Source: a virus. From it: DNA of 21,598 nucleotides. Below are positions 2 to 5,274 of this stretch, piece after piece (positions within the stretch are counted from its first letter, which is position 1; the number at the start of each line of letters is the position of its first letter). Location: IMG/VR virus record IMGVR_UViG_3300042868_001748, positions 1 to 21,598 of that record. One strand, 5' to 3'. A program made the translations under genes and the position numbers. Below the pieces are notes generated by a model. That model had not been told where the DNA came from. It saw only the letters and a program-made list of their open reading frames with translations, and made no database searches.

Positions 2-163
2 GCGCAGGAACTGATTGAGCGCGGGAGGAGAGAGGCGCTGGAGCAGCCGGAGCAGGAGCGCAAACTCACCGACGAGGTGATCGCGGACCTCTGGCACCAG
101 AACGGTGGGTTCCACCATCACTTCGCACGCGCCCTCGAGCGCTGGCTTAAAGGGCAGGCATGA
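2..163 (+). CDS. C-terminal 53 residues of an unknown phage protein (5' end outside window)
   Basis: An open frame runs from the window edge to a TGA at 161-163. Its last codons overlap the ATG of the resolvase gene (ATGA), so it is translated and coupled to the next gene. The visible part is charged and helical. It has a Glu/Arg-rich stretch, then a 'LTDEVIADLW' segment and a 'FARALERWLKGQA' end. Short proteins with a similar 'LTDEqI...FARAIE' tail occur in early or replication regions of proteobacterial phages, but no function is known to me. The 4-base overlap and shared strand suggest an early operon ending in the resolvase. It is too short to place in a family. Confidence 0.7.
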   Translation, partial: AQELIERGRREALEQPEQERKLTDEVIADLWHQNGGFHHHFARALERWLKGQA

Positions 164-639
164 GCTTCATCATCGGCATCGACCCAGGCGCCGCGGGCGC
201 CGTGGCCATCCTCGAGCCCGACGGCAGCCTGGTGCAGGTCTTCGACATGCCCAGCGTCGAGATCGTCAGCAACGGCAAGGCCAAGCGCCGCGTCAGCCCC
301 GAGATGCTGGCCGCCGAGCTGCGCCTGTACAACGTCCACGGCACCACCGCGGTGGTCGAGCAGGTGGGCGCCATGCCCGGCCAGGGCGTCAGCAGCATGT
401 TCGCATTCGGTGAGGCTTTCGGCCTGGCCAAGGGCGTGCTGGCCGGGCTGGGCATCCCGGTGCAGTCGGTGCCCCCGGCGCGCTGGAAGCGGGCCCTGGG
501 CCTGAACAGCGGCAAGGACGCCGCCCGCGCCAAGGCCGCCGCCACCTGGCCTCAGCAGGCCGGGGAGTTCAAGCGCGTCAAGGACGACGGCAAGGCCGAG
601 GCGGCGCTGATCGCGCTGTGGGGTCTCAAGGGGCCCTAG
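160..639 (+). CDS. RuvC-like Holliday junction resolvase (phage type)
   Basis: This 159-aa protein has the RNase H/RuvC fold signature. The N-terminal 'IGIDPGAAGAVAI' places the first catalytic Asp at residue 8. A central 'AVVEQV' gives Glu67. A C-terminal 'DDGKAEAALIALW' helix supplies Asp142/143 and Glu147, where RuvC has its last acidic pair. The length is close to E. coli RuvC (173 aa). Enzymes of this family cut four-way DNA junctions symmetrically, resolving recombination or replication intermediates before packaging. The start ATG overlaps the previous stop. The next gene is the integrase, after 118 bp with its own promoter-like sequence. The family call is firm; that the substrate is a Holliday junction rather than another branched DNA is inferred. 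Confidence 0.88.
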   Translation: MSFIIGIDPGAAGAVAILEPDGSLVQVFDMPSVEIVSNGKAKRRVSPEMLAAELRLYNVHGTTAVVEQVGAMPGQGVSSMFAFGEAFGLAKGVLAGLGIPVQSVPPARWKRALGLNSGKDAARAKAAATWPQQAGEFKRVKDDGKAEAALIALWGLKGP

Positions 640-757: not shown

Positions 758-1714
758 ATGTCCATCAAACTCCGCGGCGACGTCTACTGGCTCGACGTCC
801 AGATCAACGGCCAGCGCATCCGCGAAAGCCTGAAGACCGGCGACAAGAAGCAGGCCCAGGCCCTGGCCGACATCCGGCGCGCCGAGCTCTGGCAGGGCCG
901 GCTGCTCAAGGCCAAGCCCAAGAAGACCTTCCGCGAGGCCTGCGCCCGCTGGCTGCTCGAGAAGGCGCACAAGAAGTCCATCAGCGAGGACAAGGACAAG
1001 ATCAACTACTTCCTGCCGAAGCTGGGCGACCGCCAGCTGTCCAACATCACCCGCGACGACATCGAGCAGATCCTGCCCACCGACGTCAAGCCGGCCACCC
1101 GCAACCGCTACCGCGCCCTGATCCGCTCCATGCTGCGCGCCGCCGAGCGCGAGTGGGAGTGGATCGACCGCGCCCCCGTGCTGCGCACCGAGTCCGAACC
1201 CAAGCGCCGCGTCGCATTTCTGACACGCGAGCAAGCCGAGCTTTTGATGGCCTCTTTACCGGAAAAGTACCGGACTCCTGTCCGTTTCGCTTTACTCACC
1301 GGGTTGAGAAGATCGAATGTCTTCAACCTGACCTGGGACAAAGTGGACCTGCAGCGCGGCACAGTCATTGTCGAGGCAGATGAGGCCAAGGCCGGCCAGC
1401 GCATCCTGGTGCCGCTGAACACCGCCGCCCGCGAGATCCTGAAGGCCCTGCCCGAGCCGCATGAGGGCCGCGTCTGGGGCGACGTCACCCGCGTGTGGTG
1501 CAACACCTGGAAGGCCAGCTGCACACGCGCTGGCGTGCCCTGGCTGCGTTTCCATGACCTGCGCCACACCTGGGCCAGCTGGCACGCGATGGCCGGCACC
1601 CCGTTGTCGGTGCTGCAGGAGCTGGGCGGATGGCACTCGCCGCAGATGGTGCAGCGCTACGCGCACCTGTCGCCAGAGCACCTGGCCGCGGCGGCTGAAC
1701 GGGTCAGCCTGTGA
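758..1714 (+). CDS. int: tyrosine recombinase, phage integrase
   Basis: This 318-aa integrase has an N-terminal arm-binding/SAM-like part and a C-terminal catalytic domain. All expected catalytic residues are visible: Arg184 in 'TGLRRSN', Lys211 in 'ADEAKAG', the 'HDLRH' box with His266 and Arg269, His293 in 'GGWHS', and the nucleophile Tyr301 in 'QRYAHLS'. The N-terminal 50 residues ('GDVYWLDVQINGQRIRESL...') look like the short beta-sheet arm-binding domain of phage integrases. An AAAGGA ribosome site lies about 10 bases before the ATG. The gene ends six bases before the 3' CCA end of a tRNA-His on the other strand, the usual placement of an integrase that uses that tRNA as its attachment site. 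Codons around 1210-1375 are less GC-rich than the rest, hinting at mosaicism. Confidence 0.95.
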   Translation: MSIKLRGDVYWLDVQINGQRIRESLKTGDKKQAQALADIRRAELWQGRLLKAKPKKTFREACARWLLEKAHKKSISEDKDKINYFLPKLGDRQLSNITRDDIEQILPTDVKPATRNRYRALIRSMLRAAEREWEWIDRAPVLRTESEPKRRVAFLTREQAELLMASLPEKYRTPVRFALLTGLRRSNVFNLTWDKVDLQRGTVIVEADEAKAGQRILVPLNTAAREILKALPEPHEGRVWGDVTRVWCNTWKASCTRAGVPWLRFHDLRHTWASWHAMAGTPLSVLQELGGWHSPQMVQRYAHLSPEHLAAAAERVSL

Positions 1715-1720
1715 GGGGGA

Positions 1721-1797
1721 TGGGGTGGCTGATGGGGCTCGAACCCACGACCGCTGGAATCACAATCCAGAGCTCTACCAACTGAGCTACAGCCACC
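1721..1797 (-). tRNA. tRNA-His(GTG), complete with encoded CCA
   Basis: Read on the minus strand, the 77 bases fold as a full cloverleaf. There is an extra 5' G (position -1) opposite C73, which is the identity mark of tRNA-His. The acceptor stem GTGGCTG/CAGCCAC is perfect, the D stem is GCTC/GAGC and the anticodon stem is CTGGA/TCCAG. The loop is TTGTGAT with anticodon GTG. The T arm is GTGGG-TTCGAGC-CCCAT, and CCA is encoded. It closely follows the known E. coli hisR sequence. It looks functional, not a 3' fragment. Its 3' end faces the integrase stop. It is probably the integration target sequence; see the attP entry for why its position is odd. Confidence 0.97.
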
Positions 1798-1811: not shown

Positions 1812-1833
1812 TGGCACAAAAATGACACAAACT
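1812..1833 (+). repeat. integrase arm-type direct repeats, cluster 1 (two copies)
   Basis: TGGCACAAAAA (1812-1822) is followed immediately by TGACACAAACT (1823-1833), giving an 11-bp period of about one helical turn. The motif recurs in cluster 2 beside the lysozyme. Direct repeats about 10-11 bp apart on one side of the core are typical of arm-type integrase binding sites. No protein-binding evidence is available. Confidence 0.6.
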
Positions 1834-1850: not shown

Positions 1851-1960
1851 CATTCCTTCTAAATCAACAACTTAGCGGTGGGAAGTACCAGAATCACAAG
1901 ACGCTCGGTCAGTATATCCCCCTCTGTGAGCAAATCTCAGCGATGAGTCAGAAGGGCTTG

Positions 1961-1995
1961 TGTCACGAAAAAGTGGCACAAAAATGGCACAGCGT
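1961..1995 (+). repeat. integrase arm-type direct repeats, cluster 2 (three copies)
   Basis: TGTCACGAAAA (from 1961), TGGCACAAAAA (1974-1984) and TGGCACAGCGT (1985-1995) follow one another with periods of 13 and 11 bp. The middle copy is identical over 11 bases to the first copy of cluster 1, about 160 bp away. The last copy touches the stop codon of the lysozyme gene. They are interpreted as the distal arm sites of attP. Confidence 0.6.
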
Positions 1996-3204: not shown

Positions 3205-4089
3205 TCACAAGTCCTGCGTGTTGGTTGACGGGAATGCTCTGCTGGGCCCCCAAATAATCCTCACCGCTCCAGCCCCACCAGCGCCCCCGTTTTTGTACGA
3301 GTAGACGCCTGAGCCTGCCGAGGTTTCTTCTGCGCCGCCACCGCCGCCGCCAGCCCCGTAAGCTCCGCCGACACCGCCGGTGTACGGACTAAAGTCTTTT
3401 GAGCCACCATTGCCGCCGCCGCTTCCGCCACCACCGGGCGCAGTGCCGTTGGTTCCTTGTCCGAGGATCCCTACACCACCACCTCCACCCCCGTTGCCGT
3501 ATACGTTCTTGCCGCCAACAGTGTTTAGGACACCACGACTTGCGCCAGCCCCGCTGCCGCCAGTTCCAGACACTCCGGCGTTACCTCCAGCACCACCGAC
3601 GCCGGCATAGCCACCAGCGCCAGCGCCGCCGGATCCAATAGCAGGGGTGGTTGAGGTTGAAAATGGAGTTGCATCACCGCCTGCATTTGCAACGGTGCCG
3701 CCTGCAGTGCCTCCTCCAGTGCCTCCAAGACTGACTGAGTTGGTTTGATAGGAGCCCCCCTGACCCCCATTGGCGTACAAGAAGCTGCTGGACAGAAAAG
3801 AACTTTGGCCTCCAGTGCTACCACTTCCAGATCCACCACTACCCCCAGATCCAACTACGACCGCGTAACTTGTGCCTGGTGTGACGCTGATGTTGTTTGC
3901 GTAGGCTAGAGCGCCGCCGCCGCCGCCTGGCGTGTAGAAGTCGCCACCATCTGCCCCTTCACCGCCGCCGCCGACAACGACCACGCACACTTGAGTGACC
4001 CCCGGCGGGCACGTCCATGAGTACGTGCCTGGTGTTGTGTACTGCTGCTGGCCGGTAACTGGATGCCCAGACGTAGTAGCTGAAAACAT
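3205..4089 (-). CDS. glycine-rich tail fibre adhesin, copy 2
   Basis: This 294-aa protein opens with a beta-strand unit ('YTTPGTYSWTCPPGVTQVCVVVVGGGG'-like, residues about 16-43). It continues as long Gly-rich runs broken by Ser, Asn, Ala and Tyr, and closes with 'GAVRIIWGPSRAFPSTNT'. That head, poly-Gly body and C-terminal 'GAVRIIWG.. R.FPSTNT' signature is typical of Gly-rich domain phage fibre proteins. It is comparable in style to the polyglycine-II tip adhesins of T-even phages that bind surface receptors. It is paralogous to the gene at 4543-5274. Codons are visibly more AT-rich than in the virion core genes. The ribosome site is weak; it starts 4 bases after the previous stop, so coupling is likely. 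Receptor binding is inferred. Confidence 0.72.
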   Translation of the reverse strand: MFSATTSGHPVTGQQQYTTPGTYSWTCPPGVTQVCVVVVGGGGEGADGGDFYTPGGGGGALAYANNISVTPGTSYAVVVGSGGSGGSGSGSTGGQSSFLSSSFLYANGGQGGSYQTNSVSLGGTGGGTAGGTVANAGGDATPFSTSTTPAIGSGGAGAGGYAGVGGAGGNAGVSGTGGSGAGASRGVLNTVGGKNVYGNGGGGGGVGILGQGTNGTAPGGGGSGGGNGGSKDFSPYTGGVGGAYGAGGGGGGAEETSAGSGVYSYKNGGAGGAGAVRIIWGPSRAFPSTNTQDL

Positions 4090-4092
4090 GGG

Positions 4093-4539
4093 TTACACCG
4101 TGTAGTTCTGCCCGGCGTTGCTGCCGTACCAGTTGGTGCCGTCAGATGTAAAGACGTACTTGTCCAACCTGTTTGCGGTGGCGGTAATGGTGGGAGTTAC
4201 AGCCCCAGGCCACTTGACGATCGCAGGCCATGACACCGTGCGACTGCCTGTCCCGTCCTGCTTTAGCAGCAGCATGAACGACTTGCCAGCCGCAACTGTG
4301 GGAAAAGTGAAAGTGCAGTTTCCCGTCAACGTGATGAACTGAATCGTTCCGTCTGACAAGTTGATCGTGTAGGCGGTGGAGCTGTTTGCCGTGTTGACCT
4401 TTTCCTTGTAATCGCCGCCCAAGTCAAACTTAGCGGCAGGGCTTGCCACGCCCACGCCAAAGTTGACCACTGCATTGACGGAGCTAGAACCAACTTCCAG
4501 CGCGTTGCTAAGTGTTGCCAGGTTCGATGTCTTGCCCAT
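4093..4539 (-). CDS. small tail fibre/appendage protein
   Basis: This 148-aa protein has an N-terminal 'MGKTSNLATLSNALEVGSSS' leader-like stretch. A compact beta domain follows at about residues 50-148, with 'LTGNCTFTFPTVAAGKSF', 'LLLKQDGTGSRTVSWP', 'VKWPGAVTPT' and 'YVFTSDGTNWYGSNAGQNY'. I recognise this domain from many phage fibre and appendage proteins, particularly in cyanophages, where it is of unknown detailed function. It lies between the two Gly-rich adhesins with 3-base gaps on both sides, so all three are probably co-translated parts of one host-recognition cassette. A GGGGTG ribosome site precedes its ATG. Base composition resembles copy 2 of the adhesin more than the core genes. 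Confidence 0.65.
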   Translation of the reverse strand: MGKTSNLATLSNALEVGSSSVNAVVNFGVGVASPAAKFDLGGDYKEKVNTANSSTAYTINLSDGTIQFITLTGNCTFTFPTVAAGKSFMLLLKQDGTGSRTVSWPAIVKWPGAVTPTITATANRLDKYVFTSDGTNWYGSNAGQNYTV

Positions 4540-4542
4540 TCG

Positions 4543-5274
4543 TCACCCCACCCAAGTGATCATCAGATAGCCCGAGCCTCCGGCGTTGCCGGCCGTGTTG
4601 ATTGCACCGCCGCCGCCTCCACCGCCCGTGTTGGCTGCCGCGGCCGCGCCGCCTGCAGCACCAGCGCCGTAGGAGCCGCCACCACCGCCGCGGTTGGAGC
4701 TGGCAGCACCGCCGCCGGCCATGCTGGCCCCGCCGTTGGCGTTGCCACCACCGCCGCCCCCTCCGCCTTGGCCGTTCAGGAACACCACACCAGCCGAGCC
4801 GCCCGCGCCGTTGTCACCGCCCGCACCGCCCGTGCCGCCACCGCCCGAGCCGCCGATGTTGCTGCCCGAGGTGCCACCAGCAGCGCCGAATCCGCCGCCC
4901 CCACCGCCACCGCCATCGGTGCCTGATTGACCCTTGGCACCACCGCCGCCGCCGTAGGCCGTGACGGTGCCGAAGGTGGTGTTACCGCCTGCGCCGCCCC
5001 CGCCGTTGATGGCCCCGGCCGTGCCTGCTGCGCCCACTGAGTAGGCAACGGACGCGCCGGAGGTCACGGCCAAGTCAATGTCCACGATCGCCCCACCGCC
5101 GCCCCCGCCGCCGCGGTACGTCGAGGTGAAGCCACCGCCGCCACCGCCACCGCCGCCCACCGCGAATACGCGCACGCTGGTGACGCCCACCGGCACCGTC
5201 CAGTTGCCGCTGCCGCTGGTGAAGACTTGCGACTGAGACTTGCCGCCGGAGATGAATTGCGAAAGGGTACTCAT
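4543..5274 (-). CDS. glycine-rich tail fibre adhesin, copy 1
   Basis: This 243-aa protein shows a head unit with 'FTSGSGNWTVPVGVTSVRVF' followed by dense Gly runs to the end. It closes with 'GGSGYLMITWVG', a common end of Gly-rich phage domain proteins. The head aligns by eye with the gene at 3205-4089 (pattern T-P-G-T/S-x-x-W-T-x-P-x-G-V-T), so the two are diverged paralogues, but this copy is far more GC- and Gly-rich. On the + strand the gene reads as long CCGCCACCG-like tracts; these are Gly codons, not a non-coding satellite. The likely role is a trimeric or bundled fibre tip contacting the host surface. It starts 12 bases after the main fibre gene. Confidence 0.7.
   Translation of the reverse strand: MSTLSQFISGGKSQSQVFTSGSGNWTVPVGVTSVRVFAVGGGGGGGGGFTSTYRGGGGGGGAIVDIDLAVTSGASVAYSVGAAGTAGAINGGGGAGGNTTFGTVTAYGGGGGAKGQSGTDGGGGGGGGFGAAGGTSGSNIGGSGGGGTGGAGGDNGAGGSAGVVFLNGQGGGGGGGGNANGGASMAGGGAASSNRGGGGGSYGAGAAGGAAAAANTGGGGGGGAINTAGNAGGSGYLMITWVG

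Follow-up and report, generated by a model that had tools for sequence, protein, structure and literature searches.

A likely tRNA-dependent lysogeny module with a tRNA-His gene between attP and the integrase gene of a temperate phage

The window (the whole stretch of DNA analyzed here, which is an entire IMG/VR record, 21,598 bp long, classed as 'linear' and incomplete) likely carries a 'disrupt and replace' integration module, that is, a module for tRNA-dependent lysogeny, with the host gene hisR as its putative target. In the mechanism that we propose, the integrase (Int), probably together with IHF, would recombine the attP core, consisting of the 7-nt anticodon loop and a few flanking bases (1888–1899), with the anticodon loop of host hisR. 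Because attP has lost the tRNA 3′ half, hisR would be cut and not rebuilt. In the resulting prophage, the phage tRNA-His would follow the cut loop after 96 nt, on the strand of the loop, and would supply tRNA-His, possibly from the promoter of the host operon, where hisR is commonly the final gene. The sequence itself shows how the att site is built, that it lacks the 3′ half, and how the tRNA gene is placed and conserved.

The tRNA-His gene and the attP core

The gene for the tyrosine integrase (int, 758–1714, plus strand) matches phrog_1 (E = 9.5e-72) and PF00589 (E = 2.8e-26). It is adjoined upstream by a gene for a RuvC-like Holliday junction resolvase (160–639, plus strand; phrog_1770, E = 5.2e-36), an enzyme that is encoded next to int in most relatives. 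Only 6 bp separate the int stop codon from a complete tRNA-His(GTG) gene on the minus strand (1721–1797), the proposed replacement for hisR and the single tRNA detected by ARAGORN in the whole window. On the far side of the tRNA from int, all on the minus strand, are the gene for the endolysin (phage lysozyme; 1995–2462; phrog_7, E = 1.6e-39; PF00959, E = 5.1e-29), the final protein-coding gene in the late operon, and genes for small phrog_6637 and phrog_937 proteins, fibre-like proteins and more virion proteins. A sequence-only reading of this DNA had described a complete 77-bp tRNA-His with its 3′ end facing int and with phage genes on both sides. This description was borne out in full: the ARAGORN call (1721–1796) plus the encoded G−1 at 1797 gives exactly 77 bp with CCA at 1721–1723, int converges on the tRNA 3′ end, and the endolysin and minus-strand late genes occupy the other flank. 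The capsid protein of the window shares 72% identity with the capsid protein of Stenotrophomonas phage BUCT555 and 64% with its counterpart in Myxococcus phage Mx8. Within the late operon (3205–5274), two glycine-rich fibre-like proteins encoded at 3205–4089 and 4543–5274, both phrog_863 matches, flank a short fibre-like gene.

Ten distinct versions of the tRNA-His were found among the relatives, and all of them retain G−1, the encoded CCA, an unchanged anticodon loop and complete pairing of the stems. The stem pairs are 100% kept even though 13 cells at four pairs are changed on both sides, a level that was reached by none of 500 shuffles. Judged from these sequences, the phage tRNA-His is maintained as a working gene. 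The closest host hisR gene seen is 96% identical to it, and other good matches are 88–94% identical.

The attP site most likely corresponds to 1812–1991, a separate site beside the tRNA that does not include it, since the arm repeats, the sole IHF site and a conserved ATCACAA all lie there. An 18-nt repeat is present as TGGCACAAAAATGACACA on the int side of the core (1812–1829, plus strand) and as TGGCACAAAAATGGCACA on its lysis side (1974–1991, plus strand); these are putative arm-type Int sites, and zero such repeats are expected by chance even with two mismatches allowed. The sequence AATCAACAACTTA (1862–1874, plus strand) is the sole perfect match in the window to the IHF consensus WATCARNNNNTTR (0.21 expected); the site is conserved in the window and L018 clades and was not found in the L025–L039 clades. 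The core, CCAGAATCACAA (1888–1899, plus strand), contains ATCACAA at 1893–1899, the complement of the 7-nt tRNA-His anticodon loop TTGTGAT, and we infer the exact crossover bases to lie within it. The 9-bp sequence GAATCACAA occurs twice in the 21.6 kb (0.07 expected), once in the tRNA anticodon arm (1757–1765) and once at 1891–1899, where it lies between the two arm-type repeats together with the IHF consensus. This place in the window contains the loop and a few neighbouring bases only, with no tRNA 3′ half, whereas same-family relatives without a full tRNA have at the corresponding place the 3′ half of a tRNA gene, which stops at the anticodon loop. A classical attP, with a tRNA 3′ half running from the crossover to the 3′ end, was found in the positive controls L036, L038 and L040 and not in the window.

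Representatives of the L018 clade have two perfect IHF consensus sites in opposite orientation, 67 and 121 nt to the right of the tRNA and astride the attP core. The replacement tRNA itself retains the anticodon-loop core (1757–1765) that is also present in attP (1891–1899). With a core shared by the tRNA and attP, the phage tRNA of a lysogen may be available as the target of another integration.

Relatives and alternative explanations

A search with Int yielded 80 viral loci, and more were added by three further searches. A full tRNA-His(GTG) to the right of int and on the opposite strand is present in 44 contigs, the window and 43 others, although contigs counted here and below share ancestry and do not represent independent events. 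The gap between int and the tRNA is about 10 bp in most of these contigs and a stretch of about 270–440 bp in some. The ATCACAA motif was found in 42 of 42 full-tRNA contigs with enough flanking sequence, compared with 0.75% of shuffled stretches. It lies 97–107 nt from the tRNA (120 nt in the group that keeps the 3′ half and 140 nt in L080), and the bases beside it vary among contigs. Thirty-eight of the 42 lack the 3′ half; the other four (L035, L036, L037 and L039) combine a classical 3′ half with the full tRNA. Five relatives (L031, L038, L040, L081 and L090) have only the classical tRNA-His 3′ half. The same integrase family also includes 3′ halves of tRNA-Cys (16 loci) and, in other loci, of tRNA-Ser or tRNA-Asn. 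In these relatives without a full tRNA, arm-like repeats (such as TGTCACGTTTTTGGCACA) come after int, and the 3′ half comes next. In L066–L075, the region about 100–170 bp to the right of int seems to contain no 3′ half but a tRNA-Ser 5′ half that ends at the anticodon loop; if true, the tRNA would be restored on integration by joining this phage-borne 5′ half to the 3′ half of the host gene.

An alternative explanation is that the tRNA-His serves lytic translation or the evasion of tRNA-cutting defences and that its place beside attP is incidental. tRNAs are common in phages, this one is encoded on the same strand as the late operon, and the window has no recognizable terminator between that operon and the tRNA. 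An additional supply of tRNA-His during lytic growth is possible, but the representatives L018, L019, L025, L028, L032, L033 and L036 have an intrinsic terminator at the end of the late operon, ahead of attP, which separates this operon from the tRNA. Moreover, a full tRNA and a lost 3′ half coincide in all 38 core-only contigs, the isotype of the tRNA (His) is that of the core's target in every case, and the tRNA-rebuilding relatives have no full tRNA save for the four contigs with both. We therefore consider a purely lytic or defensive role unlikely.

Slightly less probable still is the proposal of the sequence-only reading that attP holds the full tRNA, with crossover within 1721–1797 and a functional tRNA-His at both ends. 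The tRNA anticodon arm does contain the same 9 bp as the core, and int is adjacent. Yet both arm repeats and the IHF site lie on the same side of the tRNA, around the second copy at 1891–1899, a separate core at the place where relatives keep the 3′ half. The phages L035, L036, L037 and L039 have the classical 3′ half at that place plus the full tRNA beside int, and the core of the classical relatives is also found there.

For the phage genes on both sides of the tRNA, the sequence-only reading had offered a free or circular phage, two tandem prophages or a permuted assembly as possible settings; a phage with a circular or permuted map fits. In records of 34–38 kb, which corresponds to genome size, the tRNA is well inside and the records are cut at different points; the major capsid gene is to the left of int in G020, G022 and G043 and to its right in G011, G013 and G1122. 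The phage genome map is circular or permuted, and phage genes on both sides of attP are thus expected. Tandem prophages or an artefact that placed phage genes on either side of a host tRNA would fit a linear and incomplete record such as the window, but are highly improbable given that int is followed by a full tRNA-His in 44 contigs with different ends, that the core comes next wherever the contig is long enough, and that no host tRNA-Pro or tRNA-Arg neighbours are found beside the tRNA-His. One 71-kb record, G1124 (L245, L324 and L325), was considered as a tandem prophage pair and not used, as it joins two related but different phages with different integrases; its att sites are tRNA-Leu-like and tRNA-Ser, one per phage.

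Modelled integration and host hisR genes

To model the junctions of the proposed disrupt-and-replace integration, hisR genes from Burkholderiales genomes (L118, L121 and L122) were joined by script to the phage arms at the 7-nt loop, and the products were analyzed with ARAGORN. Neither modelled junction contained a tRNA for the window or for any other phage of this type that was tested, and the window core at 1888–1899 was too short to give a hybrid in silico. The functional tRNA-His that had been predicted at both ends is thus not produced in the model, and the phage gene would be the sole intact copy at the locus. After modelled insertion, this gene is on the same strand as the cut gene and 96 nt downstream of the cut in the window; in the other tested phages of the window type it is 96–106 nt beyond the loop (139 nt in L080). 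The modelled junctions of L036, L037 and L039 contained a hybrid tRNA-His in addition to the phage tRNA, those of L038, L040, L081 and L090 contained the hybrid only, and L031 gave a hybrid in two of the three hosts.

Loss of a single-copy hisR is lethal unless the gene is replaced. Among 60 sampled, partly incomplete genomes, two full-length hisR matches were counted in only 3 of the 55 with a match. Since hisR is mostly single-copy, its breakage is expected to be lethal unless the phage tRNA takes over. In the sampled Burkholderiales, hisR is commonly preceded by tRNA-Pro and tRNA-Arg. The classical 3′ half of L035–L040 is identical over 47 nt to hisR genes such as L121, which points to a putative betaproteobacterial host group.

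No prophage with the predicted junctions was found in the genomes or viral contigs searched. The genome collection contained only integrases of at most 50% identity, several of them beside other tRNAs, and 401 further genomes of one family gave none at the set limit. The attL pattern gave nine matches in genomes (L109–L117), none of them a prophage: eight were ordinary tandem hisR pairs and one was hisR followed by tRNA-Phe. Neither the attL nor the attR pattern had a match in the viral contigs. Six Burkholderiales genomes (G058, G061, G068, G084, G103 and G112) have a full hisR and a separate or distant tRNA-His 3′ half, as left by mobile elements that use the anticodon loop. Stretches fetched at such hisR elements (e.g., G058, G061 and G103) had no match to any window protein, including the integrase.

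We also looked at how the tRNA might be expressed. The stretch between the core and the tRNA had no good sigma-70 match in 15 representatives (best scores, 7–9 of 12), and other scans for promoters reported none there either, although the hosts may use promoters that the scan misses. A promoter-like match at 1940–1911 of the window is on the lysis side of the core and, by eye, is not kept in L004 or other clades; it was rejected. Capture of the host hisR promoter upon integration is plausible. We tentatively suggest, as a possibility that falls somewhat short of probable, that the module is a replacement switched on by integration: a promoterless tRNA, shielded from late transcription in several relatives, would be expressed only behind the host tRNA-Pro-Arg-His promoter, and the module would have originated by gain of a tRNA cassette between int and a classical attP, as in L035, L036, L037 and L039, followed by loss of the 3′ half.

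Comparison with known systems and origin of the module

tRNA-dependent lysogeny has been described in actinobacteriophages (Guerrero-Bustamante and Hatfull, mBio 2024, PMC10865867), where cores of 8–17 bp are used, the tRNA is not rebuilt, and a phage tRNA of the same isotype is required for lysogeny. The window displays the sequence features of such systems: a short core, its own tRNA-His and a PF00589 integrase with arm repeats. It shares with Fionnbharth, Cluster L, Cain, Gaia and Mollymur a tyrosine integrase, a short core that matches part of a host tRNA gene, the lack of a rebuilt tRNA (for the window, as modelled), a tRNA of its own with the isotype of the core's target, arm-type sites around the core, and close relatives that do rebuild the tRNA (PMC10865867). 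It differs in phage lineage, in its putative betaproteobacterial hosts, and in the use of tRNA-His rather than tRNA-Lys, -Ile or -Leu. The window tRNA lies between the attP core and int, is oriented as the cut gene would be and has no good promoter match, whereas in Fionnbharth the tRNA gene is overlapped by another gene and is served by a strong promoter of its own (PMC10865867). A further difference is that the present family includes contigs in which a 3′ half and a full tRNA occur together. A similar case is that of Sinorhizobium meliloti prophages like Mesorhizobium phage vB_MloP_Lo5R7ANS (PMC11476347), but that phage is T7-like, and two genes and a distance of about 1.4 kb separate its tRNA-Leu from int. 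With the classical anticodon-loop tyrosine integrases (L031, L038, L040, L081 and the phages that use tRNA-Cys, -Ser or -Asn), the window has in common the integrase family and the position of the core; in those phages a tRNA 3′ half is present and restores the gene, which is not the case for the window phage. New here are the lineage, the use of tRNA-His, the tRNA between the attP core and int, and intermediates that bear on the origin of such systems. More generally, the attP of a temperate phage should be considered before a role in lytic translation is ascribed to any tRNA gene of that phage.

Among several possible histories, the authors of the actinobacteriophage study listed one in which a tRNA was gained and the 3′ half then ceased to be under selection; they called the matter and the relation to classical tRNA-rebuilding systems unclear, and noted that the spread outside Actinobacteria needs study (PMC10865867). 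The integrase family analyzed here holds hisR-rebuilding, both-type and replace-only phages side by side. The integrases of L035–L040 are very similar, and a tRNA cassette of roughly 100 bp is present right behind the int stop in four of these phages and absent in two (L038 and L040). The simple order would be gain of a tRNA beside a classical attP first and loss of the redundant 3′ half second; alternatively, L038 and L040 possibly lost the cassette, the support for forks within L035–L040 being weak. The contrast of L035–L037 and L039 with L038 and L040 makes the order of events testable.

On the integrase tree, the full-tRNA state needs at least five changes. L081, which has only the 3′ half, clusters with the full-tRNA phages L025–L028 and L032 (support 85/93), and L031, also with the 3′ half, clusters with L029, L030 and L033 (support 99/96). 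The tRNA of L028 is identical to that of the window despite their different integrase clades, and the same was observed for L032 and L033, which suggests that the tRNA cassette has been exchanged between phages.
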